A stretch of 26,679 bases of DNA from a virus. Positions 2,700 through 20,623 of this stretch are shown piece by piece. Location of the stretch: the IMG/VR virus record IMGVR_UViG_3300026519_000056, positions 1 through 26,679 of that record, one strand, 5' to 3'. A model generated the notes under the pieces. That model was given only the letters and a program-made list of their open reading frames with translations. It was not told the DNA's origin and ran no database searches. Position 1 is the first letter of the stretch. Each line of letters opens with the position of its first letter. A program made the position numbers and the translations under genes.

Positions 2700-2709
2700 C
2701 GAGCGCCTT

Positions 2710-2761
2710 GCGCGGGCACCCTACCCACACCTCTTCCTCCCTGAAACCGGGGTGCCCGCGC
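2710..2761 (+). other. 12-bp perfect inverted repeat with 28-nt pyrimidine-rich loop
   Basis: GCGCGGGCACCC (2710-2721) is the exact reverse complement of 2750-2761. It lies in the 83-bp gap between two early genes. No T-run follows, so it is not a canonical intrinsic terminator; an RNA processing, stability or attenuation element is possible. The hairpin at 5286-5323 is similar in placement, and its loop also contains a C-A-C-A-C/C-T-C-T stretch. Confidence 0.6.
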
Positions 2762-2782
2762 ACCAGCGCATCGAGACACAAG

Positions 2783-3478: not shown

Positions 3479-4632
3479 TGCCCTCGGCGCACGCCAGGCT
3501 TTCTCCTTCTGCCGCACACCGTTGGCTCCGCTGCCCGGGATCGGTGGGCTTGTGCGAAACACTCGGAGAGGACCGCAGCAGCGAGTTCGCCGCCGAGGGG
3601 ACAGTGGCCCATCATATCCGGGAATCCTGTCTGGCCTTCGGCTTCGAGCCAGAGGAATTTCTCGGCCAAACCATCAAGGCCGACGGGTTCGAGTTCGAAG
3701 TTACGGAAGAGATGGTCGAGGCGCTGCGCCCAGGGATCGAGTGGGTTCGTGAACGCCCCGGGCGCGTCGTGAACGAGATGCGCGTCTCATTCGACCGCTG
3801 GCTACCGGGGCAGTTCGGAACGCTGGACGTGGGGATCATCTCAGACGACCTCATCACCATTAACGACCTGAAATACGGCGCAGGCGTCCCCGTCTCGCCC
3901 GAGCACAACGAGCAGCTTATGACCTACGCGCTCGGGTTCTGGGATAATGTCGCCCGGTTCGAGACCGACGCGACCGAGTTCCTCCTTGTCATCGACCAAC
4001 CCCGGGCGCAGGGCGGCGGCGGGGAGTGGCAGGTATCGCTCGACGAGTTGCTGGAATTCGGCACAACCCTTGAGGCGGGATACGAGGCCGTTCACAGCGA
4101 CGATCCAGCCCTCAACGCCGGGGAAAAGCAGTGCCGCTTCTGCCCCGCGAAAGGCATCTGCCCGGAACTGGCCCGCTTCAATCTGGAACTCATGGGCTCC
4201 AAGTTCGACGATCTGGACGGTGACGAACTCCAGCTGAACGATGCCGACACCATGACCCCTGACAGGCTGGCGAAGGTTGTGCTGAACTCCGACATGATCC
4301 GTCGGTGGCTCGATTCCGTGCACGCCAAGGTGCTCGCCGACACCCTGTCAGGCAACCCGCCGCCAGGCATCAAGGCGGTCAGGGGCCGCAGGGGAGTCAA
4401 GAAATGGATCGACGAGAAGGCGGCAGAGGAATTCCTGTCGAAGTCCCTCGGCCCGTCAGAGATGTTCCACCCGAAGAAGCTTATCTCGCCCGCGCAGGCC
4501 GAGAAAAAACTACCCCCCGACAAATCCGAGCGCCTCGAACGCTTCTGGACGCAAGCGGAAGGAAAACCCGTCCTGGTTCCCGAGGACGACAAGCGCCCCG
4601 CAATCAGCCAGGCAGACAAGTTCGACGACTAG
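3478..4632 (+). CDS. DUF2800 protein, Cas4/RecB-like PD-(D/E)XK nuclease
   Basis: A 384-residue phage protein of the DUF2800 type. The N-terminus has the family start ([10 protein letters not shown], with C19 and C26). The nuclease core shows G-T-L-D117 and D130-L-K132, the D...DxK pattern of PD-(D/E)XK enzymes. A cysteine cluster C219-x2-C222-x5-C228 with an N-terminal Cys fits a Cas4-like Fe-S site. The C-terminal about 120 residues resemble the rest of the family, with no separate domain recognised. It probably processes DNA ends during phage recombination or replication. It is translationally coupled to the upstream gene and precedes the DUF2815 gene, its usual partner in phage replication cassettes. 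Confidence 0.85.
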
Positions 4633-4645
4633 CCATGCCCGGATA

Positions 4646-4662
4646 TTCACCAAAAACGTAAA
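4646..4662. promoter_or_regulatory. weak putative operator dyad O2 (TTCACC-N5-CGTAAA)
   Basis: The left half-site TTCACC is perfect, but the right half matches GGTGAA at only 4 of 6. It lies in the 55-bp leader of the ssDNA-binding protein gene, and a further half-site TCAAC is at 4666-4670. This is the weakest member of the dyad family and may be only a half-site. Confidence 0.3.
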
Positions 4663-4687
4663 CCGTCAACCGAAGAAAGGAAACGAC

Positions 4688-5278
4688 ATGGCAACCGAGA
4701 AAGACCCCCGCGAGGTTTACCTCAAGAACGTCCGGCTTTCTTACCCGCATCTGACCGAAAAGCAGAAGGCGACCGAGGACGCGACACCGAAGTATTCGGC
4801 GGCCTTCCTGATCGACCCCTCGACCAAGGTCGGAAGGCAGAACATCAAGCGCATCAAGGCGGCGATGGCGGCAGCCGAGGAACAGGCGTTCAAGAAGACC
4901 GGCCTGCGCTACAAGGATGACCGCATCTGCTTCAAGGACGGCAACGAGTGCTACAATCAGAACGGCGACGTGAAGGACGGCTACGAGGACATGATGGTCC
5001 TCCGGGCCTCCAACCCCAACCCGATCACCCTGCTGCACCGCAACAAGAAGACCGTCGATCCCGACAATTCGCCCTTCTACGGCGGCTGCTATGTCGAGGC
5101 CATTGTCCGGCTCTACGGCACCAAGAAGGGCGGCGCCCCCGGCCTGTTTGCGAGCCTGGAAGCCGTGCGTTTCTGGGAGGATGGCGAGCACTTCGGCAGC
5201 CCGCCCGTGGGTGCCGACGCTTTCGATGACGACGACGAGGAGGACGATTTCGACGAAGACGACGACCTCCTCGACTGA
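4688..5278 (+). CDS. DUF2815 family single-stranded DNA-binding protein (T7 gp2.5-like)
   Basis: A 196-residue protein with ATG and an AAGGAAA-type site just upstream. The N-terminal V-x-L-K-N-V-R-L-S-Y-P opening, the central Y-K-D segment and the G-G-C-Y-V-E-A-I-V-R-L-Y strand (about 135-146) are typical of DUF2815 proteins, which are OB-fold ssDNA-binding proteins related to T7 gp2.5. The last about 20 residues are almost all Asp/Glu and end in L-L-D, the expected C-terminal tail that contacts polymerase and helicase partners. It would coat single strands during replication and recombination. It is flanked by the DUF2800 nuclease and the methyltransferase/polymerase genes, with hairpins in the gaps. 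Confidence 0.88.
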   Translation: MATEKDPREVYLKNVRLSYPHLTEKQKATEDATPKYSAAFLIDPSTKVGRQNIKRIKAAMAAAEEQAFKKTGLRYKDDRICFKDGNECYNQNGDVKDGYEDMMVLRASNPNPITLLHRNKKTVDPDNSPFYGGCYVEAIVRLYGTKKGGAPGLFASLEAVRFWEDGEHFGSPPVGADAFDDDDEEDDFDEDDDLLD

Positions 5279-5352: not shown

Positions 5353-6378
5353 ATGACGGCCTACTACAACGAGAATGATCCAGAGGCAGCAGCCGTCCTG
5401 CGGGAGTTGATCAAGGTCGGCCTCATCGCACAGGGCGAGGTCGATGACCGCAGCATTCGGGAGGTCGATCCGAGAGACCTCGCGGGGTTCACCCAATGTC
5501 ATTTCTTCGCGGGGATCGGCGTCTGGAGCTACGCCTTGCGTCTGGCAGACTGGCCGGACGACAGCCCTGCCTGGACCGGCTCATGCCCGTGCCAGCCTTT
5601 TTCATCCGCCGGAAAACGCAAGGGAACCGAAGATGACCGCCACCTTTGGCCCGTATGGTTCGACCTCATCCGAGAGTGCCAGCCTGTCGTCGTATTTGGC
5701 GAACAGGTTGCGTCGAAGGACGGCCTCGGTTGGCTCGACCTTGTATCGGCTGACCTGGAAGCAGCGGACTACGCCCTCGGGACGACCGATCTTTGCGCTG
5801 CGGGCGTCGGTGCACCGCATATCCGCCAGCGGCTCTTTTTCGGGGCCTACCATCGCCGATCTGCCCTGCCGGGGCTGGGCCACCACGACCGCGCGGGATG
5901 GCTCTCGCGGAACGCTGCCGCCCCGACCGACCGACGCGGGAGTTCCGCTGGATCAGATGGCCGCGCTGGCGGGCTGGGTCACGGCGTCGGCGCGGGACTG
6001 GAAGGACACGCCCGGCATGGCGACGGAGGCGGTGAACCCGGACGGATCGAAGCGAAAGCGAGTGGATCAGCTGCCCCGACAGGCGCTGCTGGCCCTGGGC
6101 ACCCCGGTCCGACGAACGGCTTCTGGAGAGATGCTGACTGGCTCCTCTGCCGGGATGGAAGGTGGCGCCCCGTTGAACCCGGAACATTCCCGCTGGCTAA
6201 TGGGTCTCCCGCCCGCGTGGGGCTTTTGCGCTGCTATGGCAATGCAATCGTTCCCGAGGTCGCAAAGGCGTTCATCTGTGATTTCCGGGACGCCTTCCAT
6301 GCGCTCAAGGACACCGACGCCTTCCTCGAAGGTTACGGTGAAAGAGCTTCTGAGCTAGAGGCCCGCGATGCCGATTGA
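5353..6378 (+). CDS. dcm: phage C5-cytosine DNA methyltransferase
   Basis: A 341-residue protein. Motif I is F52-A-G-I-G56, motif IV is P79-C80-Q-P-F-S84 with C80 the catalytic nucleophile, motif VIII is R158-Q-R160, and motif X is G296-N-A-I. The motif VI triplet is E117-Q118-V119 rather than the textbook E-N-V, a form I associate with phage members of the family. The target recognition region lies between motifs VIII and X (about 165-250) and in this frame is Gly/Arg/Ala-rich and poorly structured. Over 5860-6100 another frame has better third-position GC (see 5633-6358). The C-terminus, W-R-P-V-E-P-G-T-F-P-L-A and beyond, again looks authentic. It likely protects phage DNA from host restriction. 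No partner restriction enzyme is visible. The gene overlaps the polymerase start by 11 bp. Confidence 0.85.
   Translation: MTAYYNENDPEAAAVLRELIKVGLIAQGEVDDRSIREVDPRDLAGFTQCHFFAGIGVWSYALRLADWPDDSPAWTGSCPCQPFSSAGKRKGTEDDRHLWPVWFDLIRECQPVVVFGEQVASKDGLGWLDLVSADLEAADYALGTTDLCAAGVGAPHIRQRLFFGAYHRRSALPGLGHHDRAGWLSRNAAAPTDRRGSSAGSDGRAGGLGHGVGAGLEGHARHGDGGGEPGRIEAKASGSAAPTGAAGPGHPGPTNGFWRDADWLLCRDGRWRPVEPGTFPLANGSPARVGLLRCYGNAIVPEVAKAFICDFRDAFHALKDTDAFLEGYGERASELEARDAD
5633..6358 (+). CDS. putative overprinted ORF within dcm (+1 frame)
   Basis: A 241-codon frame lies wholly inside the methyltransferase gene. ATG 5633 is preceded at 7 bp by AAGGGA (5620-5625). The product contains L-T-W-K-Q-R-T-T-P-S-G-R, A-L-R-A-S, G-W-A-T-T-T-A-R-D, A-R-D-W-K-D-T-P-G-M, D-Q-L-P-R-Q-A and L-N-P-E-H-S-R-W-L-M-G, a pattern I recall from many phage proteins annotated as methyltransferase-related. 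Third codon positions are very GC-rich between about 5860 and 6100, more so than in the methyltransferase frame. Either both frames are translated, or the recognition domain was moved out of frame by two compensating shifts, or frame 2 is a shadow of conserved frame 1. Function unknown. Confidence 0.4.
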   Translation: MTATFGPYGSTSSESASLSSYLANRLRRRTASVGSTLYRLTWKQRTTPSGRPIFALRASVHRISASGSFSGPTIADLPCRGWATTTARDGSRGTLPPRPTDAGVPLDQMAALAGWVTASARDWKDTPGMATEAVNPDGSKRKRVDQLPRQALLALGTPVRRTASGEMLTGSSAGMEGGAPLNPEHSRWLMGLPPAWGFCAAMAMQSFPRSQRRSSVISGTPSMRSRTPTPSSKVTVKELLS

Positions 6379-8494
6379 CGCCTATCTCAGGAGCGTCGCG
6401 CTCGCCCATGCCCCGCCGCCAGGGCGGCCGATCTTCCATCTCGACTACGAGACCTTCTCGGAGATCGACCTCAAGAAGACCGGTGCTTCGGTCTATGCCC
6501 TGCATCCATCGACCGAGGTTCTCATGCTCGCCTACGGCTGGGGCGACGGCCCGGTCAGGCAGTGGGTTCCCGCTCTCGGCGAGGAAATGCCCCAGGAACT
6601 GGCCGAGGTTCTGCGCGACCCCACAGTTACTCTGGCGGCCTGGAACGCGCCGTTCGAAATGGCGATCACCCGGCACACGCTGGGGATTGCCGTTGCCCGG
6701 GAACGCTGGCTGGACGTGATGGCGCTCGCCTATTCTCTGTCGCTGCCGGGGAAGCTGTCGAAATGCGGAGAGGTCATCGGGCTGGCCGAAGACCAGAAGA
6801 AACTCCAGCGCGGCACGCTGCTGGTCAGGAAGTTCTGCAAGCCCCGAAAGCCGACGAAGAACAAGCCCTGGACCCGGAGCACCGCGGAAACCGATCCCGC
6901 GGACTGGCAGGAGTTTCTCGAATACAACCGCCAGGACGTGATTGCCGAACGCGCCATCTACCGGCGGCTCAGGAAATTCCAGATGCCGGACCACGAATGG
7001 CGGCTCTGGCACCTGGACCAGAAGATCAACGACGCGGGTATCCCCATCAACATGAACGCCGTGCGGGCGGCGGTGCGACTGACCGAAAGCACGATCCGCA
7101 AGGACCTGCGACGGATGGGTCAGCTGACCGGGTTGTCAAATCCCAACAGCACCCAGCAGCTCCTGCCATGGCTTCGGGCGAACGGCTACCCGTTCGAGGA
7201 CCTCAAGAAGGGCCATGTCGAGCGCGCGGCGAAGATGGTCGAGGAATGGGAACATGACGAAGACGCCGATCCCTTCGCTTACAGCCCGGAATACAAGGAG
7301 GTTCTCGACCTTCGGCTCCGCGTCTCGAAATCATCGGTGAAGAAGTTCCGCGCGCTTCTGGTCGCAACCGACGCCGACGGTAAACTCCGTGGATGCCACC
7401 AGTTCGCGGGCGCCGGGCGGACCTGGCGCTGGGCGGGGCGCCGGTTCCAGCCGCAGAACCTCTCCAAACCCGAGAAATATCTGGAGGATCGGGTCCCCGA
7501 GCTGGTGCATGACGTAGAGCACCTTTCCGAGGCCGAAATCCGGGCCAAATACGAGAACCCGATGGACGTTCTGGTCGCCTGCGTTCGGCCGATGGTGCAG
7601 GCACCGGAGGGTCATCTTCTGGTCGATGCCGACCTTTCCGCGATCGAGAACGTGGTGCTCGGGTGGCTGGCGCGTGACGACAAGATTCTGCGCGTGTTCC
7701 GCGAAGGGCTGGACCCTTACATCGACTTCGCCGTGGATATGTTCGGCAAGCCTTACGAGGAGATCGAGGCGGTCGTCAAATCCGGCGACAAGACCATGCG
7801 GACGACGGCAAAGCCCGGGGTGCTGGGCTGCGGCTACATGCTGGGGCCGGGCGAAGAGCGGGAAAACCCCCGCACCGGAGAAATCGAAGCCACCGGCCTT
7901 CTCGGCTACGCCTGGAACATGAAGGTCCCCTTCACCCGGGAGATGGCCGAACTGTCGGTCAGGACATTCCGGGGCAAGTTCGTCGATGTGGTCCAGTTCT
8001 GGTGGGATTTGGACCGGGCTGTGCGTCGGGTGCTACGGACCGGAAATCCCGAGAAGGTAGGCTATCTCAGGATCGACCTAAAGAAGCCGTTCATGCGGAT
8101 CAGGCTCCCCAGCGGGCGGTTTCTGCACTACCTCCGCCCGAAGATCATCAAGAAGCGAACGCCGTGGGGTGAACTGAAACCCCAGGTCTCCTACGAACAG
8201 ATGGACAACGGCCGCTGGCGCCGGGTCACTACGCATCCCGGGAAGCTGGCCGAAAACGTCACTCAGGCGGTGGCCCGGGACATTCTGGCAAACGGCATGA
8301 CGTTGGCCGACCGGGCGGGCATCGACATTCGTCTGCACGTCCATGACCAGATCGTGGCCGTTGCCCACGAGGACCGCGCCGAGGACGCGCTGCAAACGCT
8401 GATCCGCTGCATGACCACCCGCCCGGCATGGGCGGACGACAAGTTGCCGCTTAAAGCTGCCGGGCTTACCACCAAGGTTTTCATCAAGGACTGA
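6368..8494 (+). CDS. family A DNA polymerase with 3'-5' exonuclease domain
   Basis: A 708-residue replicative phage polymerase. The exonuclease has D26-Y-E28 (Exo I), N93-x2-F-E97 (Exo II, with Glu in place of the common Asp) and Y186-x3-D190 (Exo III). The polymerase domain has motif A around D422-L-S-A-I-E427, motif B R478-x3-K482 followed by G-C-G-Y490, and motif C H659-D660-Q661, where most PolA enzymes have H-D-E. D422 and D660 are the predicted catalytic metal ligands. There is no 5'-3' exonuclease domain, as is usual in phage enzymes. The ATG overlaps the end of dcm by 11 bp, with GAGG upstream. It acts with the DUF2815 SSB and the primase-helicase. Confidence 0.93.
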   Translation: MPIDAYLRSVALAHAPPPGRPIFHLDYETFSEIDLKKTGASVYALHPSTEVLMLAYGWGDGPVRQWVPALGEEMPQELAEVLRDPTVTLAAWNAPFEMAITRHTLGIAVARERWLDVMALAYSLSLPGKLSKCGEVIGLAEDQKKLQRGTLLVRKFCKPRKPTKNKPWTRSTAETDPADWQEFLEYNRQDVIAERAIYRRLRKFQMPDHEWRLWHLDQKINDAGIPINMNAVRAAVRLTESTIRKDLRRMGQLTGLSNPNSTQQLLPWLRANGYPFEDLKKGHVERAAKMVEEWEHDEDADPFAYSPEYKEVLDLRLRVSKSSVKKFRALLVATDADGKLRGCHQFAGAGRTWRWAGRRFQPQNLSKPEKYLEDRVPELVHDVEHLSEAEIRAKYENPMDVLVACVRPMVQAPEGHLLVDADLSAIENVVLGWLARDDKILRVFREGLDPYIDFAVDMFGKPYEEIEAVVKSGDKTMRTTAKPGVLGCGYMLGPGEERENPRTGEIEATGLLGYAWNMKVPFTREMAELSVRTFRGKFVDVVQFWWDLDRAVRRVLRTGNPEKVGYLRIDLKKPFMRIRLPSGRFLHYLRPKIIKKRTPWGELKPQVSYEQMDNGRWRRVTTHPGKLAENVTQAVARDILANGMTLADRAGIDIRLHVHDQIVAVAHEDRAEDALQTLIRCMTTRPAWADDKLPLKAAGLTTKVFIKD

Positions 8495-8497
8495 GGA

Positions 8498-8812
8498 ATG
8501 AAGTGTGGCATGGCGCGCCGCGAAGCCTTCATCGAGAACGAAGTTTGCAAGCACGCCCGCGCTTTGGGGTGGCGCGTGCGCAAGATGCAGTTCATCGGCC
8601 GACGCGGCTGCCCCGACCGCTGGTTTTTCGGCCCGGACGGACAGCTGGTTGTCATTGAGTTCAAGGACCCGAACGGCAAGCTCTCGGTCGCCCAGCGCCG
8701 GGAAATCAACTGGATGAAGGCCAATGGCTTCAATGTCCATGTTGTAAATGACGTCGAGACCGGGTGCGAGATTTTCGACACCCTGTCGGATGAGGGTCCC
8801 GCGGATGAGTGA
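8498..8812 (+). CDS. VRR-NUC domain nuclease
   Basis: A single-domain VRR-NUC protein of 104 residues from ATG 8498; an ATG at 8510 would give 100 residues and is equally compatible with the fold. The catalytic set is visible as G34-R-R-G-C-P-D40 and E54-F-K56, the PD-(D/E)XK signature, followed by K-L-S-V-A-Q. Stand-alone phage VRR-NUC proteins are thought to be structure-specific nucleases, for example for branched DNA; here the exact substrate is unknown. It sits 3 bp after the polymerase and overlaps the helicase start, a common phage order. Confidence 0.88.
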   Translation: MKCGMARREAFIENEVCKHARALGWRVRKMQFIGRRGCPDRWFFGPDGQLVVIEFKDPNGKLSVAQRREINWMKANGFNVHVVNDVETGCEIFDTLSDEGPADE

Positions 8813-10268
8813 ACCCAGCGCTCTCAGGTGCCCGGGCGATCTTCGCCCCTATCAGCGGGACCTCGCAATCCGGCTGCGCGATGACTTCGGGAAGAAGCCC
8901 GGCGCGTTGCTTGCGGTGCAAATGTCACTTGGCAAGACCGTGATGACGGCCACCGCGATGCGCTGGTTGCTGGACGAATTCATGGTGCGGCGCTGGCTCA
9001 TCATCGCCCCGCTTCGCGTGGCCCAAATGACCTGGCCGGACGAGTTCGGCGCCTGGAGCCACCTGCGCCCCCTGAAATGGGTCAGCCTTTGCGGCACCCG
9101 GATCGGACAATCCGTTTCACCTGCCAAGCGGACAGAACTGCTCCGGCAGTTTCTGGCGGACTCCTCTCAGGAAATCGCTATCATCAACCGCGAGAACGTG
9201 GTGTGGCTCTACCGCACCTTGCGCGAGATGGGCCATGAGTGGCCATTCGACGGGATCGTCTATGATGAATCCTCGCGCCTGAAAGAGGGGAGGAAACGAA
9301 CCGGCAGCAGACGTCTGTCGGAGTTCGGCGCCCTGGCCAAGGTCAGGAAGCACATCTCTTACGTCATCGAACTGACCGGAACCCCGACCCCCAACGGGCT
9401 GATCGACCTGTGGGGCCAGCTCTACCTGATCGACCAGGGGCGGCGGCTCGGCACCACCAAGACCGCGTTCCTTCGGCGCTGGTTCGACTCGGATTACATG
9501 GGCTGGACCCATACACCGAAACCGAATGCGGAGCGGGAAATCCTCGGCCGAATCAAGGACGTCACCGTGTCACTCAAGACCCGGGACGTGATCGCTCTCC
9601 CCGAAATCGTCACCTCGAACGTGTTTGTCGAACTGACCGAGAAGGAGATGCGCGACTACCGGCGTTTCGAGCGCGAACTGGCGCTGGAGGAGCACGACAT
9701 TGAAGCCGTCAACCGAGGCGTTCTGACTTTCAAGCTACTCCAATACGCCAACGGCTCGGTCTATCGGACCGACGAGGATAGCTTCCCGCCGAAACGAGAG
9801 GTCGTCCGCATCCATGACCACAAGCTGCACGCGATGGATTCCATTCTGGCGGAAACGGGGGGCGCGAACCTGTTGGTCGCCTATTCTTACAAGTTCGACC
9901 TGGACGCGCTGAAAAAACGCTACCGTTTCGCCCGTGTCGCCGAAGAGCCGGGCGCCCTGGACGACTGGAACGCGGGCAAGGTCAGGATGCTGCTCGCACA
10001 TCCCGCCTCGATAGGTCACGGCATGAATATCCAGTTCGGCGGCCACCACATCGTCTGGTTCGGGCTGAACCCGAGCCTTGAGCTGTATCAGCAGTTCAAC
10101 GCACGGCTCCCCCGCCCCGGACAGAAGGCGGACCGCGTGTTCATTCACCACATCCTCGCACGGGGCACTTTCGACGAAAAGCTGATACGGATTCTCGCGG
10201 ACAAAGACGCCACCCAAGAGCGGATCACCGACGCCGTGAAGTCTCACCTTCGGGTGATGGATACCTGA
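8805..10268 (+). CDS. SNF2-type (SF2) DNA helicase/translocase
   Basis: 487 residues from ATG 8805, which overlaps the stop of the nuclease gene; an upstream GTG at 8748 lies inside that gene and is unlikely. Motifs: Q17 in L-R-P-Y-Q, Walker A M40-S-L-G-K44-T45 (usual form M-G-L-G-K-T), motif II Y153-D-E-S156 in place of DEAH, motif III around L190-T-G-T-P, motif V G404-H-G-M-N408, and motif VI Q430-F-N-A-R434-L-P-R437-P-G-Q with the arginine fingers. These place it with phage SNF2/DEAD-like helicases that follow VRR-NUC genes. It may remodel replication or recombination intermediates. It is the last gene of the early unit. Confidence 0.9.
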   Translation: MSEPSALRCPGDLRPYQRDLAIRLRDDFGKKPGALLAVQMSLGKTVMTATAMRWLLDEFMVRRWLIIAPLRVAQMTWPDEFGAWSHLRPLKWVSLCGTRIGQSVSPAKRTELLRQFLADSSQEIAIINRENVVWLYRTLREMGHEWPFDGIVYDESSRLKEGRKRTGSRRLSEFGALAKVRKHISYVIELTGTPTPNGLIDLWGQLYLIDQGRRLGTTKTAFLRRWFDSDYMGWTHTPKPNAEREILGRIKDVTVSLKTRDVIALPEIVTSNVFVELTEKEMRDYRRFERELALEEHDIEAVNRGVLTFKLLQYANGSVYRTDEDSFPPKREVVRIHDHKLHAMDSILAETGGANLLVAYSYKFDLDALKKRYRFARVAEEPGALDDWNAGKVRMLLAHPASIGHGMNIQFGGHHIVWFGLNPSLELYQQFNARLPRPGQKADRVFIHHILARGTFDEKLIRILADKDATQERITDAVKSHLRVMDT

Positions 10269-10510
10269 CCAAAAAGACAGGTTGCCAACGGGAGACCTCC
10301 CATTCTGCGCTTTGGCGTGCGCAACCATAAACAGGCGTTTGGCCCATATTTTATTACGTTATTGCCAAGCGAATCACTCGACTATTATCATCCTTAACCT
10401 CTCGTCAACAGAAAAATCATTGACGGGGGCTGATAATTCAACTACCTGTTGAAAGGTGAAGGATTAAGTTTGCAGTTCCGCAATGATCTTAGGGCAGAAG
10501 TGAGGACGCC
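10269..10510. promoter_or_regulatory. 242-bp AT-rich control gap before the HTH regulator gene
   Basis: This non-coding gap after the helicase gene starts with nested inverted repeats: GGTTGC (10280-10285) with GCAACC (10321-10326), and inside them GGGAG-N2-CTCCC (10290-10301). They may form a terminator-like structure, though no T-run follows. The middle (10340-10400) is very AT-rich. TTGACG (10420-10425) is a -35 candidate; a -10 at 17-bp spacing would fall on the operator dyad at 10437-10453. GAGG precedes the GTG start. Confidence 0.5.
10437..10453. promoter_or_regulatory. putative operator dyad O3 (TTCAAC-N5-GTTGAA), perfect palindrome arms
   Basis: This site has perfect 6-bp arms around a 5-bp spacer, making it one of the two most symmetric members of the family. 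It overlaps the likely -10 position of the regulator promoter and lies 58 bp before the GTG of the regulator gene, as expected for autoregulation. Another TCAAC half-site and a TTGAC half-site occur just upstream (10400-10424). Confidence 0.6.
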
Positions 10511-11206
10511 GTGGCACAAGAAACGACCGCCGAATTCGGATACAGGCTGACCCAGGCCCTGGAGGGACACCCTCATGCGCCCCCAACCCCTTTCGGGCGA
10601 CTGACCTGGTTGAAGCGTGAGCTGGAGAAGGTCGCGGGCGTCAAGGTCAGCGTCAATACGGTGCATAAATGGGTCCACGGCACCAGCCGCCCACGAGAAG
10701 ATAATGTGCGGGCTCTGGCGAAGGTCCTGAAGGTTGATGAGGTCTGGCTGTCGATGGGCCGGAAGCCCGTCGAGACAGAAAATGCGCCGCCAGTTGCCGC
10801 GACGGCCCGAGGCCCCGCCCTTTTGGTGGCTGGCCTGATCGAGGTCTCGGGAGGACGAGTTACCTTTCCAGATGCCGGATCGGGGGAAACTCCCCACCTG
10901 TGGGCCAATATCGGCGACAAGCAATTCGGCATTATCGCCGTGACTCCCCAGAGCGACGACGGCGAGAAGGTTTCGTTCGTGATCCCCGAACCCATAGCTG
11001 AGCATCGGGTTCTCGGGGTGGTCCAGGCCGCAGCTTCTACGCCGGGTATCTGTGTATCCATTCTCGACTTGACCGGGGTCGAGCGCCAGTCATTCGGCGG
11101 GTTCTCGGTCGTTCAACTGGAGCGTCGCAAGGGCGGCCGCTACAAGGCACAGGGCCATAGGAAACTCCTTGAAACCCTCAGCCGGATAGAGGAAGTGACG
11201 CCCTGA
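10511..11206 (+). CDS. HTH-domain phage regulator, candidate repressor
   Basis: 231 residues from GTG 10511 with GAGG a few bases upstream. The N-terminal about 80 residues look like an XRE/CI-type DNA-binding domain, with a long first helix and then a recognition segment containing S-V-N-T-V-H-K-W-V-H-G-T-S-R-P and V-R-A-L-A-K-V-L-K-V. The C-terminal 140 residues are Val/Gly-rich and beta-like. They show no S24/LexA Ser-Lys protease pattern, so RecA-driven self-cleavage is not supported. It lies between early and integrase genes and directly downstream of the best operator dyad, which makes it the prime candidate to bind the dispersed dyads. That link is inference. Confidence 0.75.
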   Translation: MAQETTAEFGYRLTQALEGHPHAPPTPFGRLTWLKRELEKVAGVKVSVNTVHKWVHGTSRPREDNVRALAKVLKVDEVWLSMGRKPVETENAPPVAATARGPALLVAGLIEVSGGRVTFPDAGSGETPHLWANIGDKQFGIIAVTPQSDDGEKVSFVIPEPIAEHRVLGVVQAAASTPGICVSILDLTGVERQSFGGFSVVQLERRKGGRYKAQGHRKLLETLSRIEEVTP

Positions 11207-11210
11207 GAAA

Positions 11211-11228
11211 GTTGTAAATCTGTTGTAA
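11211..11228 (+). repeat. two direct GTTGTAA copies, 11 bp apart
   Basis: GTTGTAA at 11211-11217 and 11222-11228, one helical turn apart, right after the regulator stop codon. They belong with the cluster at 11416-11479. Confidence 0.6.
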
Positions 11229-11336
11229 GCCCCAAATTTGGCTTCTAAGCCTCTGTGAGAAAATAGAAAACGATCAAAGGGTCGCCCACCATGAATTCTT
11301 CCCCGAAAGCGAAAATACGCGAAAAACACGCCTGTT

Positions 11337-11353
11337 TTCAACGCCTTGTTGAC
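11337..11353. promoter_or_regulatory. putative operator dyad O4 (TTCAAC-N5-GTTGAC)
   Basis: Eleven of twelve arm positions match the perfect palindrome. It overlaps TTGACA (11349-11354), a consensus -35 hexamer on the plus strand that could serve the integrase gene, although no good -10 is obvious at 17 bp. Confidence 0.5.
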
Positions 11354-11415
11354 AGGCGGGAACCGAAGCGCATTGCACGGAACTGCCCGATTTACCCCTG
11401 AAATGAAGCGATTTT

Positions 11416-11479
11416 GTTGTAAAAATCGCCCTCTTACAACACCCGAGCAAAGCCGTTTACAACACTTGCCGCGTTGTAA
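11416..11479. repeat. four GTTGTAA/TTACAAC copies in alternating orientation
   Basis: GTTGTAA at 11416-11422, TTACAAC at 11434-11440 and 11457-11463, and GTTGTAA at 11473-11479. They form two inverted pairs with spacers of 11 and 9 bp and end 26 bp before the integrase ATG. Together with the pair at 11211-11228 they make six copies within 270 bp. Confidence 0.65.
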
Positions 11480-11505
11480 GGATTCGCACCGCCAAAGGTT
11501 TTCAA

Positions 11506-12711
11506 ATGCTGACAGACAAACAGATTCGATCCGCGAAACCCTCAGACCGCCTCTACCGCATGGCCGACGGCGGTGGCCTTTTCCTCGCCATCCACCCGAG
11601 CGGGCGCAAGACGTTTCAATTGATGTTCCGCGCCCAGGGGAAACAGACGACCCGAACCTTGGGGGAATACCCGGACCTGACGCTGGCCGATGCCCGCTTC
11701 GAAAGGGAGGCCATCAAGCGCCGGTTGCGGCGCGGAGAATGCCCGCCTGAGTTGGTTAAACGATCCCATACCTCGCCCGATCAGCCCGAGATCGTTCCCG
11801 AAAGGAGCTGGGCGCAGTGGATGCGTCGCTACCTGACGAAACGGCGGCGCGAAGGGGCGGCCCCCGCGACGATGAAAAAACTGGAGCTTCACGCAGAAAT
11901 CGCGGGAAAGGTGCTTGATGACATGGACCCCCGCGAAATCAAGGCAGGGCACATCATCGAAGCCTGTCGCCATTACGAAGAGAAGGGGATGCTGAATTCA
12001 GCCCATGCCGTGCGCGCCCTCTGTTCGCAGGTATTCCGTTTCTGCATCGCGCATGGGGCAGCGGATTTCGACCCGGCCGCTCCAGCGCGGGACGCAATCG
12101 CCCGCCCCCGCAACACGGGTTACGCAGGCGTGACGGACCCGAAACGGATCGGGGAACTCATGCTGGCAATCCAGCGCTACCAGGGCGATCCGGTGGTGCG
12201 GGTGGGCCTGCTGCTCTCGGCTTACCTGTTCCCACGCAACGGCGAAATCAGGCGCATGACCTGGGGTCAGATCGACTTTGACAAGGCGCTCTGGACTGTT
12301 CCCGCGGCCCAGATGAAGAAAAAGCGAGAGCATCTTGTCCCGCTCCCGAGACAGGCGCTCGACCAGCTGGCCTGGCTGCGTCAACTGACCGGACGGGAAG
12401 AACTCGTGCTCCACTCCCGAACCTCCAACAGCGGTATTCTTTCGGAGAACACCTTCAACCAGGCTCTGCGCAAGATCGGTTTCGGCCCGCAAGAGCATGT
12501 TCACCACGGGTTCAGGATCACCGCATCGACGATCCTCAACGAACAGGGTTGGAATTCCGACTGGATCGAACGGCAACTGGCCCATGTCGAGGAAAACAAG
12601 ATCAGGGGCGCCTACAACAAGGCTCTCTATCTGCGCGACCGGGCTCTGATGATGCAGGCCTACGCCGACTGGTTGGACGAACGGGCGGAAGAAGCGGAAA
12701 TTCGGGGGTAG
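11506..12711 (+). CDS. int: tyrosine recombinase / phage integrase (DUF4102 N-terminus)
   Basis: A 401-residue P4-like integrase with AAAGG before the ATG. The N-terminal about 80 residues are the DUF4102 arm-binding type (L-T-D-K-Q-I-R-S-A-K-P, L-F-L-A-I-H-P-S-G-R-K). A core-binding domain follows at about 100-190. Catalytic residues visible are R244 (in F-P-R-N-G-E-I-R), H334-x2-R337, H360 and the nucleophile Y370 (G-A-Y-N-K). It would integrate and, with a directionality factor, excise the phage. It is flanked by early and late modules instead of lying at one end, so in this sequence it is not beside a host junction. Its stop codon is inside a strong hairpin. Confidence 0.93.
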   Translation: MLTDKQIRSAKPSDRLYRMADGGGLFLAIHPSGRKTFQLMFRAQGKQTTRTLGEYPDLTLADARFEREAIKRRLRRGECPPELVKRSHTSPDQPEIVPERSWAQWMRRYLTKRRREGAAPATMKKLELHAEIAGKVLDDMDPREIKAGHIIEACRHYEEKGMLNSAHAVRALCSQVFRFCIAHGAADFDPAAPARDAIARPRNTGYAGVTDPKRIGELMLAIQRYQGDPVVRVGLLLSAYLFPRNGEIRRMTWGQIDFDKALWTVPAAQMKKKREHLVPLPRQALDQLAWLRQLTGREELVLHSRTSNSGILSENTFNQALRKIGFGPQEHVHHGFRITASTILNEQGWNSDWIERQLAHVEENKIRGAYNKALYLRDRALMMQAYADWLDERAEEAEIRG

Positions 12712-12764
12712 GCGAAGCCGGGGCTGGGGGTGGAGGAGCGATGACGAAGCCCCGGCTTCGCCTA
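12709..12764. terminator. 17-bp perfect inverted repeat overlapping the integrase stop codon
   Basis: The arm at 12709-12725 starts with the TAG stop and is the exact reverse complement of 12748-12764, with a 22-nt G-rich loop. It is GC-rich, symmetric and without a T-run, so it is more likely a bidirectional transcription barrier or DNA/RNA structure than a textbook intrinsic terminator. Confidence 0.55.
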
Positions 12765-12830
12765 TTGGCGGGCGACCCGCCGACGGCAAATTGGCATGAG
12801 CCAACGGCACAATCAACTTTCAACTTGTTT
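12765..12830. other. two further short hairpins and half-sites; candidate cos or control region
   Basis: GGCGGG/CCCGCC (12767-12772 with 12776-12781) and TTGGC/GCCAA (12791-12795 with 12800-12804) follow the big inverted repeat. Two direct TCAAC half-sites (12813-12817, 12820-12824) come next. In lambda-like phages the cos site lies just before the small terminase gene, so this structured gap is a reasonable place to look for it. No cohesive-end sequence can be proven here. Confidence 0.35.
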
Positions 12831-12847
12831 TTCACCTTTTGGGTGAT
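12831..12847. promoter_or_regulatory. putative operator dyad O5 (TTCACC-N5-GGTGAT) before the late unit
   Basis: It is almost symmetric. TTGTTT lies immediately upstream (12825-12830) and AATAAT (12850-12855) downstream, so the dyad would sit between candidate -35 and -10 elements of the packaging unit. The ATG of the AlpA-like gene follows 45 bp later. Confidence 0.5.
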
Positions 12848-12891
12848 TTAATAATCCCGAGGAAGCGATTCATCTCTGGGGTATCACAGGC

Positions 12892-13116
12892 ATGTCCAGA
12901 CAAGACCGCAAAAAGGGGGCCGCCGGGAACGATCCTGTCGTGTTTATTGGCGTTGGCGAAGTTGCGCGCAGGATCGGGCTGTCCAGCAGGACGATCTACA
13001 AATGGGCCGATTCGGGTCTGTTCCCGAAACCAGTCAAACTCTCCCCGACCCGAATCGCTTTCATCGAATCTGAAATCCAGGCGTGGCAGGAGGCCCGGAT
13101 CGCGGAGCGGGCATGA
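12892..13116 (+). CDS. AlpA-like small HTH protein
   Basis: A 74-residue protein. Residues 22-60 form the MerR-like winged HTH typical of the AlpA family (V-G-E-V-A-R-R-I-G-L-S-S-R-T-I-Y-K-W-A, then G-L-F-P-K-P-V-K-L). Its Lys/Arg-rich N-terminus may add DNA contact. Such proteins act as activators or excisionases in P4- and lambda-like elements. Its location between integrase and terminase, with its stop overlapping the terminase start (ATGA), fits either a directionality factor or a DNA-recognition helper for packaging. I cannot decide between them. Confidence 0.8.
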   Translation: MSRQDRKKGAAGNDPVVFIGVGEVARRIGLSSRTIYKWADSGLFPKPVKLSPTRIAFIESEIQAWQEARIAERA

Positions 13117-13766
13117 CCGACGTGGATGAATTCCTCGGCATCGAAACCGATGTGCCGACCGAAAAACGGGGGCAGAAGAAAAAGAACCGTGGCGGGGGCG
13201 GCACCCACCGGACCGCCTCGGACAGCACTGTCATCATGGCCCTGAACCGGCCGGTGTCGGTGACGTTCCTGATGCAGGTCTGGGGGATGGACCGCAAGAC
13301 CATCCTCAAGCGACTTTCCGAACTCCCCCCGGTCGGCCAGCACCGCGGGAATCAACCTCTTTACGACTTTCGGCAGGCCGCGCAATACCTCGTGACACCG
13401 CGCGTGAACGTCGCCCAGCATATCAGGAAGATGGGGGTCGAAGACCTGCCAAAGGCCCTCCAGAAAGACGTATGGGATGCCAAGCTCAAGGAACAGAAAT
13501 GGCGCCTCCAGGCGGGCGAGCTATGGCCGACCGAGGACGTGCTGGAGGTCCTCGGCGAAGCGTTCCATCGCCTCAAGACCACGACGCAGCTCTGGATTGA
13601 CCAGTTGAGCGAGGGCCACGCCCTTCCCGCCAAAGTCCGGGAAGAGCTGACGCGCATGGTGGACGCGCTGCAAGCCGACCTGCACCGGGCGCTCGTGGAA
13701 ATGCCGAAGGAACGCACCACGCCCAGCCAGATCGGCGAACTCGCGGGAACGGACCTTGATGGGTAG
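13113..13766 (+). CDS. small terminase subunit (DNA recognition)
   Basis: 217 residues from ATG 13113, which overlaps the preceding stop as ATGA; the longer frame from GTG 13083 is less likely. The N-terminus is Lys/Gly-rich and disordered. A winged-HTH follows at about 45-100 (V-S-V-T-F-L-M-Q-V-W-G-M-D-R-K-T-I-L-K-R-L, then a wing with P-L-Y-D-F-R-Q-A). The helical C-terminal part (about 120-205) would bind the large subunit. The layout matches Nu1/TerS-like phage proteins, and its position directly before the GpA-type large terminase supports this. It would bind the packaging start site. Confidence 0.82.
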   Translation: MTDVDEFLGIETDVPTEKRGQKKKNRGGGGTHRTASDSTVIMALNRPVSVTFLMQVWGMDRKTILKRLSELPPVGQHRGNQPLYDFRQAAQYLVTPRVNVAQHIRKMGVEDLPKALQKDVWDAKLKEQKWRLQAGELWPTEDVLEVLGEAFHRLKTTTQLWIDQLSEGHALPAKVREELTRMVDALQADLHRALVEMPKERTTPSQIGELAGTDLDG

Positions 13767-15837
13767 GTTTCAGACGCTGGAGGAGATGGTCCTGGCAACG
13801 GCGGAAGCCGTGCGCCCGCCCGAACGTCTGACCGTTGCCCAAGCGGCGGAAAAATACCGCTACATCAACAATCCTGGCTCCTATGTCGGCCCGTTCAGAA
13901 ACGACACGACCCCCTATCTGGTGCAGCCGATGGAGGTGCTGACCTCTGTCGATTTCACGGGGATGATCTTTGTCGGCCCAGCCCAGTGCGGCAAGAGCGA
14001 CATGAGCCTGAACTGGCTCACCTATTCGGCAGTTTGCGATCCGGCCGATTTCATGCACATCGACAAATCGCAATCCTCGGCGCGCGACTTCTACCAGCGG
14101 CGCGTCGAAAAACTGTTTCGGGACACCGCGGCAGTGCGCGAACGTCTCCTGCCGGGCAAGCACCACCAGTCCACCTATTCCACGAAATTTACCAGCGGGA
14201 TGCTCTACACCCTTTCCTGGCCGACCGTGAACGAGCTTTCGGGCAAGCCTGTCGGGCGGCTCTGGCTGGCGGACTATGACCGGATGGATCAGGACATTGG
14301 CGGTGAAGGCTCGCCTTACGACCTTGCGGTGCAGCGAATGAAGACCTTCGGCCGCTTCGGCATGTGCGCGGCGGAATCCTCGCCCTCCCGCCCGATCGAG
14401 AATTCCCGCTGGATGCCGCAGTCGCCGCATCAGGCACCACCGACCACCGGCATTCTGGCGCTCTACAATCGCGGCGACCGGCGACGGTGGTATTGGCCCT
14501 GTGTGGCTTGCGGCTCCCCGTTCGAGCCAGACTTCTCGCTTTTCGAGTGGCCCGACAGCGAGGACCCGCTGGAAGCAGCCGAGCAGGTTGTCATGCGCTG
14601 CCCGCATTGCTCGCACCCCTACCGGGACACGACGCACGACGACACCGGAACGCCGGGCAAACGCGCAATGAACAAGCGCGGCTTCTGGCTACGCGACGGT
14701 GAGCAGTTTGTCCCGGATACCGGTGAGATTGCAGGAACACCGGTTCGCTCCCGGATCGCCTCGTTCTGGCTGAAGGGTCCGGCAGCCGCGTTCGCCGACT
14801 GGACGGATATGACGCTGAAATACCTCAAGGCGGTCCAGGAATTCGAGGCAACAGGCTCTGAAGAGGCCCTCAAGACTACGGTGAACACCGATCAGGCCCT
14901 GCCCTACCTGCCCGCAGGAGTCGAGGCCGAACGGCTTCCCGAGGAATTGAAGGCCCGCGCTCGGGATTTCGGCGAGAAGGTGGTGCCGGAGGGCGTCCGA
15001 TTCCTGCTGGCCACGGTGGACGTGCAAAAGAGCCGGTTCGAGTGCCAGGTCCACGGGATTGGAGAACACGGCGATGTGTGGATCATCGACCGGTTCAAGA
15101 TCAGGAAATCGGCGAGACTTGACGAGGACGACGACCCGCTGCCCCTGAATCCAGGCGCCTATGTCGAAGACTGGCACCTGCTGACAGACCAGGTTTTGCT
15201 GCGCCAGTATGAGCTCGGCGATGGCTCGGGCCGCAAGATGCAGGTCCGCATGATGGCTGTGGACTCGGGCGGGCGCGAGGGCGTGACCGCGAATGCCTAC
15301 GAATACTGGCGCCAGTTGCGTAAGGATGGACAGAACCTGCACCGGCGGGTGCAGTTGCTCAAGGGTGAGCACCGGGCGTCGGCACCTCTTGTGCGAATCG
15401 ACTACCCGGATGCGGAACGCAAGGATCGCCGCGCGCAGGCCCGGGGCGAAGTGCCGGTCATGTTCATCAACTCGAACGCCGCCAAGGACATGGTGAACAA
15501 CATGCTCGCCCGCGCCGAACCGGGTGGCGGAATGGTGCATTTTCCAGACTGGCTGCCGGACTGGTGGTATGTCGAGCTGACCGCCGAGACCAAGACCGCA
15601 AAGGGCTGGGTAAACCCTGGCAAGGCGCGCAATGAAGCCTGGGATTTGCTGGTTTATTGCATGGCACTGGCTCATTCGAGCAAGGTCAGGCTCCCGCACA
15701 TCGACTGGGAGAATCCGCCAAGTTGGGCCGCTCCCTGGGACGAAAACGATTTGGTGTCGGAGGGAAATAACTTTCGGTTTGATTTTCAACCGAAAAGTGA
15801 TATTAGCTTGCGAAAACTGGCTGAAACCCTTGGCTAG
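13759..15837 (+). CDS. large terminase subunit, lambda GpA family
   Basis: 692 residues from ATG 13759, overlapping the small subunit by 8 bp. ATPase: Walker A G73-P-A-Q-C-G-K79-S80, and a likely Walker B region L-A-D172-Y-D174. Two Cys pairs, C248-x2-C251 and C281-x2-C284, form a predicted zinc site, as in many GpA relatives. The RNase H-like nuclease has acidic residues D421 (in A-T-V-D-V), D502 (A-V-D-S-G-G) and D629 (E-A-W-D). It cuts concatemeric DNA and drives it into the prohead through the portal. The last about 20 codons are unusually AT-rich and carry the dyad at 15785-15801. Confidence 0.93.
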   Translation: MGRFQTLEEMVLATAEAVRPPERLTVAQAAEKYRYINNPGSYVGPFRNDTTPYLVQPMEVLTSVDFTGMIFVGPAQCGKSDMSLNWLTYSAVCDPADFMHIDKSQSSARDFYQRRVEKLFRDTAAVRERLLPGKHHQSTYSTKFTSGMLYTLSWPTVNELSGKPVGRLWLADYDRMDQDIGGEGSPYDLAVQRMKTFGRFGMCAAESSPSRPIENSRWMPQSPHQAPPTTGILALYNRGDRRRWYWPCVACGSPFEPDFSLFEWPDSEDPLEAAEQVVMRCPHCSHPYRDTTHDDTGTPGKRAMNKRGFWLRDGEQFVPDTGEIAGTPVRSRIASFWLKGPAAAFADWTDMTLKYLKAVQEFEATGSEEALKTTVNTDQALPYLPAGVEAERLPEELKARARDFGEKVVPEGVRFLLATVDVQKSRFECQVHGIGEHGDVWIIDRFKIRKSARLDEDDDPLPLNPGAYVEDWHLLTDQVLLRQYELGDGSGRKMQVRMMAVDSGGREGVTANAYEYWRQLRKDGQNLHRRVQLLKGEHRASAPLVRIDYPDAERKDRRAQARGEVPVMFINSNAAKDMVNNMLARAEPGGGMVHFPDWLPDWWYVELTAETKTAKGWVNPGKARNEAWDLLVYCMALAHSSKVRLPHIDWENPPSWAAPWDENDLVSEGNNFRFDFQPKSDISLRKLAETLG
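15785..15801. promoter_or_regulatory. putative operator dyad O6 inside the 3' end of terL
   Basis: TTCAAC-CGAAA-AGTGAT. The surrounding 15767-15820 is conspicuously AT-rich for this gene, as if codon choice were bent to keep a DNA site. It shares 19 of 20 bases with 2083-2102 in reverse orientation. It lies about 50 bp before the gpW gene. Confidence 0.5.
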
Positions 15838-16056: not shown

Positions 16057-17699
16057 TGACGCTGGATGCCGAAGCACGCGCACTTCTCGGGGAACCCGAC
16101 GTGACGGTATCCTCGGCCCCGCCCGAATCCGCCCTCGTCGGCGGCGCTCACGATGCTGCCCGGCGAAACGAGCGGATGCTGGCTCTGTGGAGTCCGCCGC
16201 TGCGCTCGGCCGACTTGGACCTGATCCCCGAAAAGGGAACGCTGGACGCCCGCACTCGCGACGTTTTGCGCAACGACGCCTATGTGCGGGGAGGCGCGGT
16301 AATCCATCAGGACAACATTGTCGGCTCGCTCTACGCGCTGAACGCCAAACCGGTTTCCCGCATTCTCGGCCCCGGTTTCGACGACACCTGGGAGGAGGAG
16401 TTTCAGGCAGAGGTCGAAGAACGCTTCACGTTGTGGGCGGAAAGCCCGGACAACTGGGTGGACGCCTCGCGCGTCAACACCTTCACCGAGATGGTCCGGC
16501 TTGCCGTCGGCGTCCATGTGGCCGCCGGGGAAGTCCTCGCCTCGGTCGAATGGCTGCGCGATGCCGGTCGCCCCTTCAACACGGCCATCCAGTTCATCGA
16601 TACCGACCGCCTGTCCACCCCGGCGACGGAGCCCGACAACCCCCGGATCGTCGGCGGGATCGAGAAAAATGCACGCGGGGCGCCCGTTGCCTATCACATC
16701 CGCGTAGCGCATCCTTCGGACTGGCGCGTGCCCGGGCGAAACATGAAGTGGAAGCGCGTCCCGGCCCGCAAACCCTGGGGGCGGCTCCAGATCATCCACA
16801 TTCTGGAACAGCACCGCCCCGACCAGACCCGCGGCGTGGCGGAAATGGTGGCGGCGCTCAAGGAAATCCGCATCACCAAGCAATTCCGGGACGTGGTGCT
16901 CCAGAATGCGGTGGTGAACGCGACCTACGCGGCCTCGATCGAAGCCGATCTGCCGAGCGCGGAAGTGTTTGCGGCGCTTGGCGGGGTGGACAACCCGGCC
17001 GAGGCGATGGGCCAATGGGCCGCCTCCTACCTGTCGCAGATTGCGGAGTATTCGGGTGGAGCCAGGAACCTTGCCCTCGACGGGGTGCGAATTCCGCATC
17101 TGTTCCCCGGCACCAAACTGCATCTGCACAAGCCGGGGGACGGCGGGCCGCTCGGCCAGGATTTCGAGCAGTCCCTGTTGCGCTACATCGCGGCTGCGCT
17201 GGGCATCAGCTACGAGCAGCTTTCGCGGGATTACACCAACACCAACTATTCGTCGGCCCGCGCGGCAATGGCCGAGACCTGGAAACGCATGGGCGCGCTC
17301 AAGCGAATGGTGGCGGACCGGTTCGCAACCACGATCTACCGGCTCTGGCTGGAAGAGGTCGTGAACAAGGGCATCCTTACATCTCTCCCCCGAGCGGCCC
17401 GCACCGAAGGTTGGCTCTACCAGGACCAGCGCCTTGATGCGCTCTCCCGTTGCGACTGGATCGGCGCCTCGCGGGGCCAGATCGACGAACTCAAGGAGAC
17501 CCAGGCTGCGGTGCTCCGCCTGAAATACAACCTCACGACCGAGGAAGACGAGATCGCCCGCATGGGGCGTGACTGGCGGGCGACCAAGCGCCAGCGCGCC
17601 CGGGAAAAGGCGATGGACCGGGAGCTGAGCCTTGAGACCCCGGACGACCCGAACATGGTCAACGCAATCAGCGGTGATCCCCGCCAGAAGGACGTGTGA
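16056..17699 (+). CDS. portal protein, lambda gpB family
   Basis: 547 residues from ATG 16056; a GTG one codon earlier overlaps the gpW stop. The sequence follows lambda-type portals: an N-terminal segment with R-N-D-A-Y-V-R-G-G-A-V-I-H-Q-D-N-I-V-G-S (about 72-91), a middle wing/stem region, and a late segment with L-G-I-S-Y-E-Q-L-S-R-D-Y-T-N-T-N-Y-S-S-A-R (about 383-403), the hallmark of the family. The dodecameric ring forms the DNA entry channel at one head vertex. Confidence 0.93.
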   Translation: MTLDAEARALLGEPDVTVSSAPPESALVGGAHDAARRNERMLALWSPPLRSADLDLIPEKGTLDARTRDVLRNDAYVRGGAVIHQDNIVGSLYALNAKPVSRILGPGFDDTWEEEFQAEVEERFTLWAESPDNWVDASRVNTFTEMVRLAVGVHVAAGEVLASVEWLRDAGRPFNTAIQFIDTDRLSTPATEPDNPRIVGGIEKNARGAPVAYHIRVAHPSDWRVPGRNMKWKRVPARKPWGRLQIIHILEQHRPDQTRGVAEMVAALKEIRITKQFRDVVLQNAVVNATYAASIEADLPSAEVFAALGGVDNPAEAMGQWAASYLSQIAEYSGGARNLALDGVRIPHLFPGTKLHLHKPGDGGPLGQDFEQSLLRYIAAALGISYEQLSRDYTNTNYSSARAAMAETWKRMGALKRMVADRFATTIYRLWLEEVVNKGILTSLPRAARTEGWLYQDQRLDALSRCDWIGASRGQIDELKETQAAVLRLKYNLTTEEDEIARMGRDWRATKRQRAREKAMDRELSLETPDDPNMVNAISGDPRQKDV

Positions 17700-17701
17700 A
17701 A

Positions 17702-18970
17702 ATGCCTGAAACGCAATGTGATATTCTGCTGGTGAACCCTGAACGGGTCGAACTCGTCGAAGCGGCGTTGCACCGGTTCAAGACGGGTATTTTCCCGAGT
17801 GAGCAAGCCTCGCTGCCGCCCGTATCAGCGGACCGAAATGATGGGTCCGACGATGGCTTCTGGGATGACCCGGAACTGGCCTGGGCACGTCCCTATACTG
17901 TGCGGTCCGGCAGTCTGGTCATCCCGGTCAGCGGCGTGTTGCTGAAAGACTTCCCCTACACGTTGAAGGGCATCGTCACCGGTTATGAATACATCGGGGC
18001 TGCGCTCTCGCGCGGCCTTGCCGACCCTGGTGTGGGCCGCATCGTGCTGGACATTGATTCCCCTGGGGGTCTTGTCGGCGGCCTTTTCGACCTTGCGGAC
18101 CGGGTTTACTACGCCAGGAGCGAAAAGCCCATTGTCGCGGTCGCAAACGAGCACGCCTATTCGGCGGCCTATGCAATCGCATCCGCTGCGAGCGAGATCA
18201 CCGTCGCGCGCACGGGTGGTGTCGGCTCCGTCGGCGTCGTCGTCACGCATGTGGACGTGAGCAAGGCGCTGGAAAGCGAAGGCGTGCGGATCACGTTCGT
18301 TCACGCGGGTAAGCGGAAGATGGACGGAAACCCCTACCAGGCCCTCTCGGAGCGCGCGCGAAACAGCATCCAGTCCCGAGTGAACGCCATCTATGACATT
18401 TTCGTCGCCACCGTGGCGCGGAACCGCGGCATGGGCGAGGAGGCTGTCCGCCAGACGGAAGCAGCCATCTTCCTGCCGCATGAAGCCATCGAGGTCGGTT
18501 TTGCCGACAGGATCGGCAGCCTCGATGAAACCCTGTCGGCCTTTGCCGAACCTGTCACCAGAAAAGGAGATGACACCATGTCCAAGGACAACTCGGCGGT
18601 CGAAGAAACCGCCCACGAGGAAGCCCTGGCCGCTGCTCGGGCCGAAGGCGTCGAAGCCGGTAAGGCGGCAGGCGCCGAAGCGGAGCGCGCCCGAATTGGC
18701 GCGATCCTCGACAGCGACGAGGCGAAATCGCGCCCCGCAGCGGCGCGTCAGGTCGCGCTGAGAACCGGCCTGTCGGTCGAGGACGCCAGGGCGTTTCTGA
18801 CCGGGCTGCCGGAGGAGAAGAGCGAGGAAAACCCCGGCTCCATGTTCGTCGCGTCGATGAACGGCGACGAGCACCCGAACCTCGGTGCCGGTGCCGACAA
18901 CCCGAGCACCGACGCCGAAGACCGCGTGACCCGCGCCTTCGCGGCCGTTGGCGTCCGCTACGAGCAGTAA
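17702..18970 (+). CDS. S49 family prohead protease with C-terminal scaffold region (lambda gpC-like)
   Basis: 422 residues from ATG 17702, with AAGGA upstream. The serine protease core includes the I-D-S-P-G-G oxyanion loop, catalytic S154 in H-A-Y-S-A-A-Y, and K206 in G-K-R-K-M-D-G-N-P-Y as the likely general base. After about residue 292 the protein becomes Ala/Glu-rich and helical, as in scaffold proteins. In lambda the 3' part of gene C is also expressed alone as Nu3; the same layout is present here (see 18578-18970). It acts inside the prohead and processes head proteins. Confidence 0.92.
   Translation: MPETQCDILLVNPERVELVEAALHRFKTGIFPSEQASLPPVSADRNDGSDDGFWDDPELAWARPYTVRSGSLVIPVSGVLLKDFPYTLKGIVTGYEYIGAALSRGLADPGVGRIVLDIDSPGGLVGGLFDLADRVYYARSEKPIVAVANEHAYSAAYAIASAASEITVARTGGVGSVGVVVTHVDVSKALESEGVRITFVHAGKRKMDGNPYQALSERARNSIQSRVNAIYDIFVATVARNRGMGEEAVRQTEAAIFLPHEAIEVGFADRIGSLDETLSAFAEPVTRKGDDTMSKDNSAVEETAHEEALAAARAEGVEAGKAAGAEAERARIGAILDSDEAKSRPAAARQVALRTGLSVEDARAFLTGLPEEKSEENPGSMFVASMNGDEHPNLGAGADNPSTDAEDRVTRAFAAVGVRYEQ
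18578..18970 (+). CDS. nested in-frame scaffolding protein (Nu3-like)
   Basis: An internal ATG at codon 293 of the protease gene is preceded by AAGGAG (18564-18569) at an 8-base spacing, the best ribosome binding site in this gene. The 130-residue product is acidic, Ala/Glu-rich and coiled-coil-like at its start, and ends with a helical segment (V-T-R-A-F-A-A-V-G-V-R-Y). This reproduces the lambda C/Nu3 overlap, in which free scaffold is made in excess of protease. No direct proof of initiation is available. Confidence 0.65.
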   Translation: MSKDNSAVEETAHEEALAAARAEGVEAGKAAGAEAERARIGAILDSDEAKSRPAAARQVALRTGLSVEDARAFLTGLPEEKSEENPGSMFVASMNGDEHPNLGAGADNPSTDAEDRVTRAFAAVGVRYEQ

Positions 18971-18994
18971 CGCAATCAGAACTGGAGAAACGAC

Positions 18995-19432: not shown

Positions 19433-19470
19433 TCGCGGGACACTGAAACATAAGCACAAGGAAACAGGAA

Positions 19471-20559: not shown

Positions 20560-20568
20560 GCACCATCC

Positions 20569-20590: not shown

Positions 20591-20623
20591 TATTTCACCT
20601 GAAACAGGAAAGAGGAGCCTATA

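Follow-up and report, generated by a model that had tools for sequence, protein, structure and literature searches.

The window, a stretch of 26,679 nucleotides from a virus (IMG/VR record IMGVR_UViG_3300026519_000056), carries six exact copies of the heptamer GTTGTAA within 11211-11479, between the gene of a helix-turn-helix regulator and that of a tyrosine integrase (Table 1). The gene order across 6368-15837 is polymerase A, VRR-NUC, SNF2 helicase, regulator, int, AlpA-like, small terminase and large terminase, and resembles that of Ruegeria phage V16 (Casjensviridae). The regulator is 45% identical to the regulator preceding int in Ruegeria phages, and the integrase contains the Pfam domains Arm-DNA-bind_3 (PF13356, 1.1e-19), Phage_int_M and Phage_integrase. 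The first-pass annotation had described two direct copies 11 bp apart after the regulator gene, and these are found at 11211 and 11222, both on the plus strand and 11 bp apart from start to start, the first beginning 5 bases past the regulator stop codon. It had placed the other four in alternating orientation close to int; their presence was borne out, as was the distance of 26 bases between the last copy (11473-11479) and the int ATG at 11506, whereas strict alternation was not, the orientations being + - - +.

Table 1. Features of the attachment region and its neighbouring genes in the window
Feature	Position	Strand	Evidence
HTH regulator (repressor-like), just upstream of attP	10511..11206	+	Pfam HTH_3, E=7.1e-7
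Predicted P-arm site 1, GTTGTAA	11211..11217	+	Exact match; kept at far prophage end in integrated relative
Predicted P-arm site 2, GTTGTAA	11222..11228	+	Exact match; kept at far prophage end in integrated relative
attP core, AGGGTCGCCCACCA plus shared T	11278..11292	+	Overlap of two blastn pieces against integrated relative; alignment
Predicted P'-arm site 1, GTTGTAA	11416..11422	+	Exact match; kept in L036
Predicted P'-arm site 2, GTTGTAA	11434..11440	-	Exact match; kept in L036
Predicted P'-arm site 3, GTTGTAA	11457..11463	-	Exact match; kept in L036
Predicted P'-arm site 4, GTTGTAA	11473..11479	+	Exact match; kept in L036
Tyrosine integrase, 401 aa, DUF4102 (Arm-DNA-bind_3) type	11506..12711	+	Pfam domains; arm-domain structure matches
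AlpA-like protein, candidate directionality factor	12892..13116	+	Pfam Phage_AlpA, 3.9e-11

That six copies in 270 bp are far from random, as had been claimed, is upheld by 3,000 dinucleotide shuffles of 11211-11479, none of which gave any heptamer six times (maximum five, seen once). Across the window GTTGTAA occurs seven times against 0.61 expected, a count reached in 0 of 100 shuffles, and when the real window was scanned in steps of 20, at least five copies of one heptamer were found only in segments over 11211-11479. A chance origin of the cluster is ruled out by these shuffle counts. The seventh copy (8741-8747) is a stray directly ahead of the helicase gene and probably does reflect chance.

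A scan of one genome per species (84,980 species) for relatives of the integrase returned seven loci, and a tRNA adjoins int in all seven. The nearest, L036 (WFTU01000319.1, a Rhodobacteraceae MAG), encodes an integrase 93% identical to that of the window and begins with a complete tRNA-Tyr(gta) gene (L036:7-90), the final 14 bases of which, AGGGTCGCCCACCA, are window 11278-11291. Past the tRNA end the alignment tracks the window with all four right-hand repeats retained, and the opposite end of the contig holds the regulator gene, the pair GTTGTAATTCTGTTGTAA, a second core copy and then other DNA. In blastn against the reversed contig, window 1-11292 matches 20318-31613 and window 11278-16240 matches 77-5037, each at 89% identity, with a single break and an overlap between the two pieces of exactly 15 bases, 11278-11292. 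Because the pieces overlap exactly there, the core is placed at 11278-11292, between the repeat groups; it is the 3' end of tRNA-Tyr, CCA included. An attachment core elsewhere is ruled out by the same overlap. The idea that the core might lie between the two groups has thus been confirmed at the attL and attR of the integrated relative, where each junction keeps one group; these are junctions of a relative 89% identical in DNA rather than of a lysogen of the window phage itself. The one-break permutation relative to this contig indicates that the window is the unintegrated, circularly permuted form, so that it contains an intact attP with two sites on the P arm and four on the P' arm.

No further core copy was found in the MAG to which the window contig belongs (84% complete), and since this MAG lacks attB or a second core copy the host of the window phage is not confirmed. 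The contig was binned in a bacterial MAG without the tRNA-Tyr end yet spans an intact attP, and may represent free phage, an excised form or mis-binning. The integrated relative in turn has no match to window 16241-26679 and its portal gene is cut short. In place of this segment, between the same att sites, are about 15 kb of defence-like cargo with DndD/PbeC-like, DndE/HerA-like, DpdB/DndB-like and MT-A70 methylase genes (L050:6713-11999, L051:350-3057), for which an assembly error is possible.

The same architecture recurs in relatives that carry other heptamers. Ruegeria phages DSS3-P1 and V16 (Casjensviridae; V16 as L002/L005) share with the window the succession of regulator, P pair 11 bp apart, tRNA-end core, P' sites, int, small regulator and terminase, but differ from it in an integrase of 40% identity, in the heptamer GTTGCGC and in another tRNA-end core, CCGCCCCCGGGCACCA. 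The stretch of V16 examined carries no att annotation. IMG/VR contigs L003/L004 have a direct GTTGGAT pair, the core CCGCCCCCGGGCACCA and more copies before int, again all between regulator and int. Pairs at the far end of integrated elements (GTTGTAC in G196 and G198, GTTGGAC in G199, where the pair is on a separate contig) adjoin a copy of a tRNA-Gly end; the far P pair of G197 was not found. In the window, its integrated relative, V16, L003/L004, G196, G198 and G199 the two copies of the P pair start 11 bp apart, and the end of the pair precedes the core by 44-50 bases. In L079, L080, L081 and L083, phages with no core identified, the copies start 12 bp apart. Other Casjensviridae with int near a regulator gene are RcRios, RHph_X2_30 and AchV4 (L081, L082 and L080), and repeat scans gave no clear arm repeat in RHph_X2_30.

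The integrase has the features of the IntSXT / P4-cluster subgroup, whose definition includes an N-terminal DUF4102 domain (PMC8138268). The DUF4102 domain and the catalytic residues are present, and insertion at a tRNA 3' end is seen among its relatives. R244, K271, H334, R337, H360 and Y370, invariant in an eight-row alignment, are presumably the tyrosine-recombinase catalytic residues. An AlphaFold2 model of the arm domain alone (mean pLDDT 88) joins strands 35-43 and 46-55 as a hairpin, and from the strand pairing residues 40, 42, 47 and 49 should face one side. The model matches the solved arm-binding domains 3jtz, 3ju0 and 3rmp with Z of 13-14 over 75-83 residues, and the HPI and HAI7 domains among these have the same fold. 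At the two hairpin positions considered below HPI has K40/E47 and HAI7 S40/Q47, compared with M40/Q47 in the window; because of its K40/E47 pair, HPI is predicted to read a site other than that of the window.

Related integrases sort into differing site classes, and an invariant TGTTG across all relatives is rejected. In a scan of 392 integrase columns for those separating TGTTG from TGGGG rows, the column of window Q47 ranked first and that of M40 second, the next best making 3 errors. Position 47 is Q in 18/18 TGTTG rows and E in 25/25 TGGGG rows (43 of 43 clear rows); position 40 is A, Q, S or M in the former and K in the latter. An earlier version of the scan used 36 rows. L089, L098, L102, L111 and L036 were dropped as duplicates or near-duplicates from the column scans and from the 118-row survey below, as were short or frame-broken rows (below 370 aa in the 392-column scan, below 110 aa in the 36-row scan and the survey). 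A close set of tRNA-Leu loci, which also varies at other arm-domain residues, divides in the same way: L116, L117 and L128 (Q40, Q47) carry TGTTGGTA, L119 and L132 (R40, E47) carry TG(C/T)GGGTA, and L121 (R40, Q47) carries TGTGAGTA. L096, L017, L088 and L108 encode K40/E47 integrases with no repeated TGGGG before int, and are exceptions or have mis-set regions.

A four-class rule (TGTTG, TGGGG, ATGGT, TGACG) was fixed before two hold-out searches, the first leaving out L118 and L140 as unreadable and the second nine loci already seen. Pooled, and with rows that are not fully independent (L116, L117, L128 and L129 are close relatives), the rule was right in 24 of 35, named the wrong motif in two (L125, L163) and had no single motif to score in nine (L133, L134, L135, L138, L144, L149, L150, L155, L169). 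Permutation of the labels (20,000 runs) gave a mean of 9.65 right and a maximum of 18. In the full survey of 118 rows, 77 have one clear motif, in six classes, and the residue pair at 40/47 fits 76 of these 77; the remaining 41 have no single motif of at least three copies, and the YGG, TGA and ACG class patterns were set after part of the data had been seen. Column 49 ranks third in this survey. Site class changes at least six times on a tree from which the arm domain was left out, but no more than three independent pairs fall on well-supported branches; all three agree with the code (p=0.25), which gives it little phylogeny-aware support. Determination of the site by the target tRNA was rejected: TGGGGG-type sites occur with Thr, Phe, Leu, Ser, Arg, Gly, Ala and Asn tRNAs, and one tRNA also pairs with different site classes.

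The survey suggests that residues 40 and 47 set which arm-site sequence an integrase reads, and we consider it probable that a simple code of two residues, at these positions, governs arm-site reading by DUF4102-type integrases in general. With residues numbered as window M40 and Q47 and sites framed as TG-nnn-GTA, the pair at 40 and 47 corresponds to bases 3-5 as follows: K,E with GGG; R,E with YGG; R with A or Q with TGA; A, S, M or Q with Q with TTG; N,Q with ATG; and D or E with R with ACG. Textbook residue-base contacts pair E with C, Q with A and R with G. Apart from R40 rows that have A or Q, residue 47 agrees with these pairings for the complement of base 4. No arm-site code for integrases was found in searches of the open-access literature. 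The title of 3rmp refers to the structural basis for recognition of attP by P4-like integrases, so attP recognition by one such integrase has already been solved and the code may be partly anticipated by that work.

Our data support a model in which the region serves as the intact attP of a temperate, Casjensviridae-like Rhodobacteraceae phage that inserts at tRNA-Tyr, with the heptamers as predicted integrase arm-type sites, a reading to which we assign a probability of about 0.93. Two elements of a POP'-type attP are present, namely a junction-mapped core common to the phage and the tRNA-Tyr end in its integrated relative, and arm repeats in a 2 + 4 arrangement. The proposal of the first-pass annotation that the repeats are arm-type sites flanking attP gains support from the core position in the relative and from the family-wide tracking of the heptamer with two arm-domain residues, and binding by integrase is the most likely role of GTTGTAA. 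That annotation also offered the AlpA-like protein, as a directionality factor, as the binder in place of integrase. Its gene lies directly downstream of int, likewise in AchV4 and phiAH14b, but the heptamers occupy both arms in an arm-type pattern and their class follows two integrase residues throughout the family, the close set included, which makes this assignment very improbable. Less credible still are operators of the regulator, be it at 11211/11222 only or at all six heptamers: the P pair begins just past the regulator stop and the protein has an HTH_3 domain, yet copies flank the att core in several lineages, integrated elements carry the P pair at the prophage end opposite the P' group, and the sole further copy in the window is the stray at 8741. 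As operators of the regulator alone the heptamers are ruled out by the permutation in the integrated relative.

A different balance of functions, compatible with the attP assignment, would make the P' group chiefly an operator for int autorepression, with arm binding secondary. Int may repress itself because the four P' sites end 26 bp ahead of its gene, and in KplE1 attL is overlapped by the intS promoter, which IntS represses (PMC2951348). Against this, int would have no need of an operator at the position of the P pair, about 290 bp upstream on the far side of the core, and a search of the plus strand near the P' sites for sigma-70 promoters gave no match; we regard autorepression as the chief function of the group as unlikely. 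For an attP, the integrase N-terminal arm-binding domain would bind the (T)GTTGTAA sites and the catalytic part the core, with site bases 3-5 (TTG in TGTTGTAA) read by residues 40 and 47 from the same face of the beta hairpin, as the family survey suggests. The 11-bp spacing would set both sites of the P pair on one helix face. Integration at tRNA-Tyr would restore the tRNA end, the P' group staying beside int and the P pair passing to the other junction, and int may be repressed by bound integrase, as intS is by IntS in KplE1.

In phage lambda attP has a POP' layout, and the N-terminus of the integrase binds arm sites on either side of the core, as proposed for the window. The lambda site sequence and arm domain are unrelated to those of the window; between core and arms of the window attP there is also no exact match to the IHF consensus WATCAANNNNTTR. 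KplE1 (CPS-53) of E. coli K-12 is closer, with a DUF4102-type integrase, a core at a tRNA 3' end and several arm-type sites between core and int, near the int start. It differs in its tRNA (argW) and in its YGGGTAAA sites, which are repeated between argW and intS and go with R40/E47 in the intS product, as against TGTTGTAA with M40/Q47 in the window, and its sites have been studied experimentally while those of the window are deduced from sequence. All IntS P' arm sites have TAAA in common, and IntS represses intS, with the same predicted for many tRNA-linked integrases (PMC2951348). TAAA fits the K-12 repeats directly and YGG fits the code, and the reported repression suggests that the window P' sites may repress int too.

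The attP described here is an ordinary one of a known kind, and the proposed recognition code, testable and not described in the open-access literature searched, is the novel part. With attP mapped to the base and a target gene named, lysogeny of the window phage becomes testable. If the code is confirmed, protein sequence could suffice to call arm sites, and hence the limits of attP, in many genomic islands and prophages, and cross-reacting integrases would be predictable. Our results suggest that two residues of a single hairpin determine arm-site specificity in a very large class of integrases.
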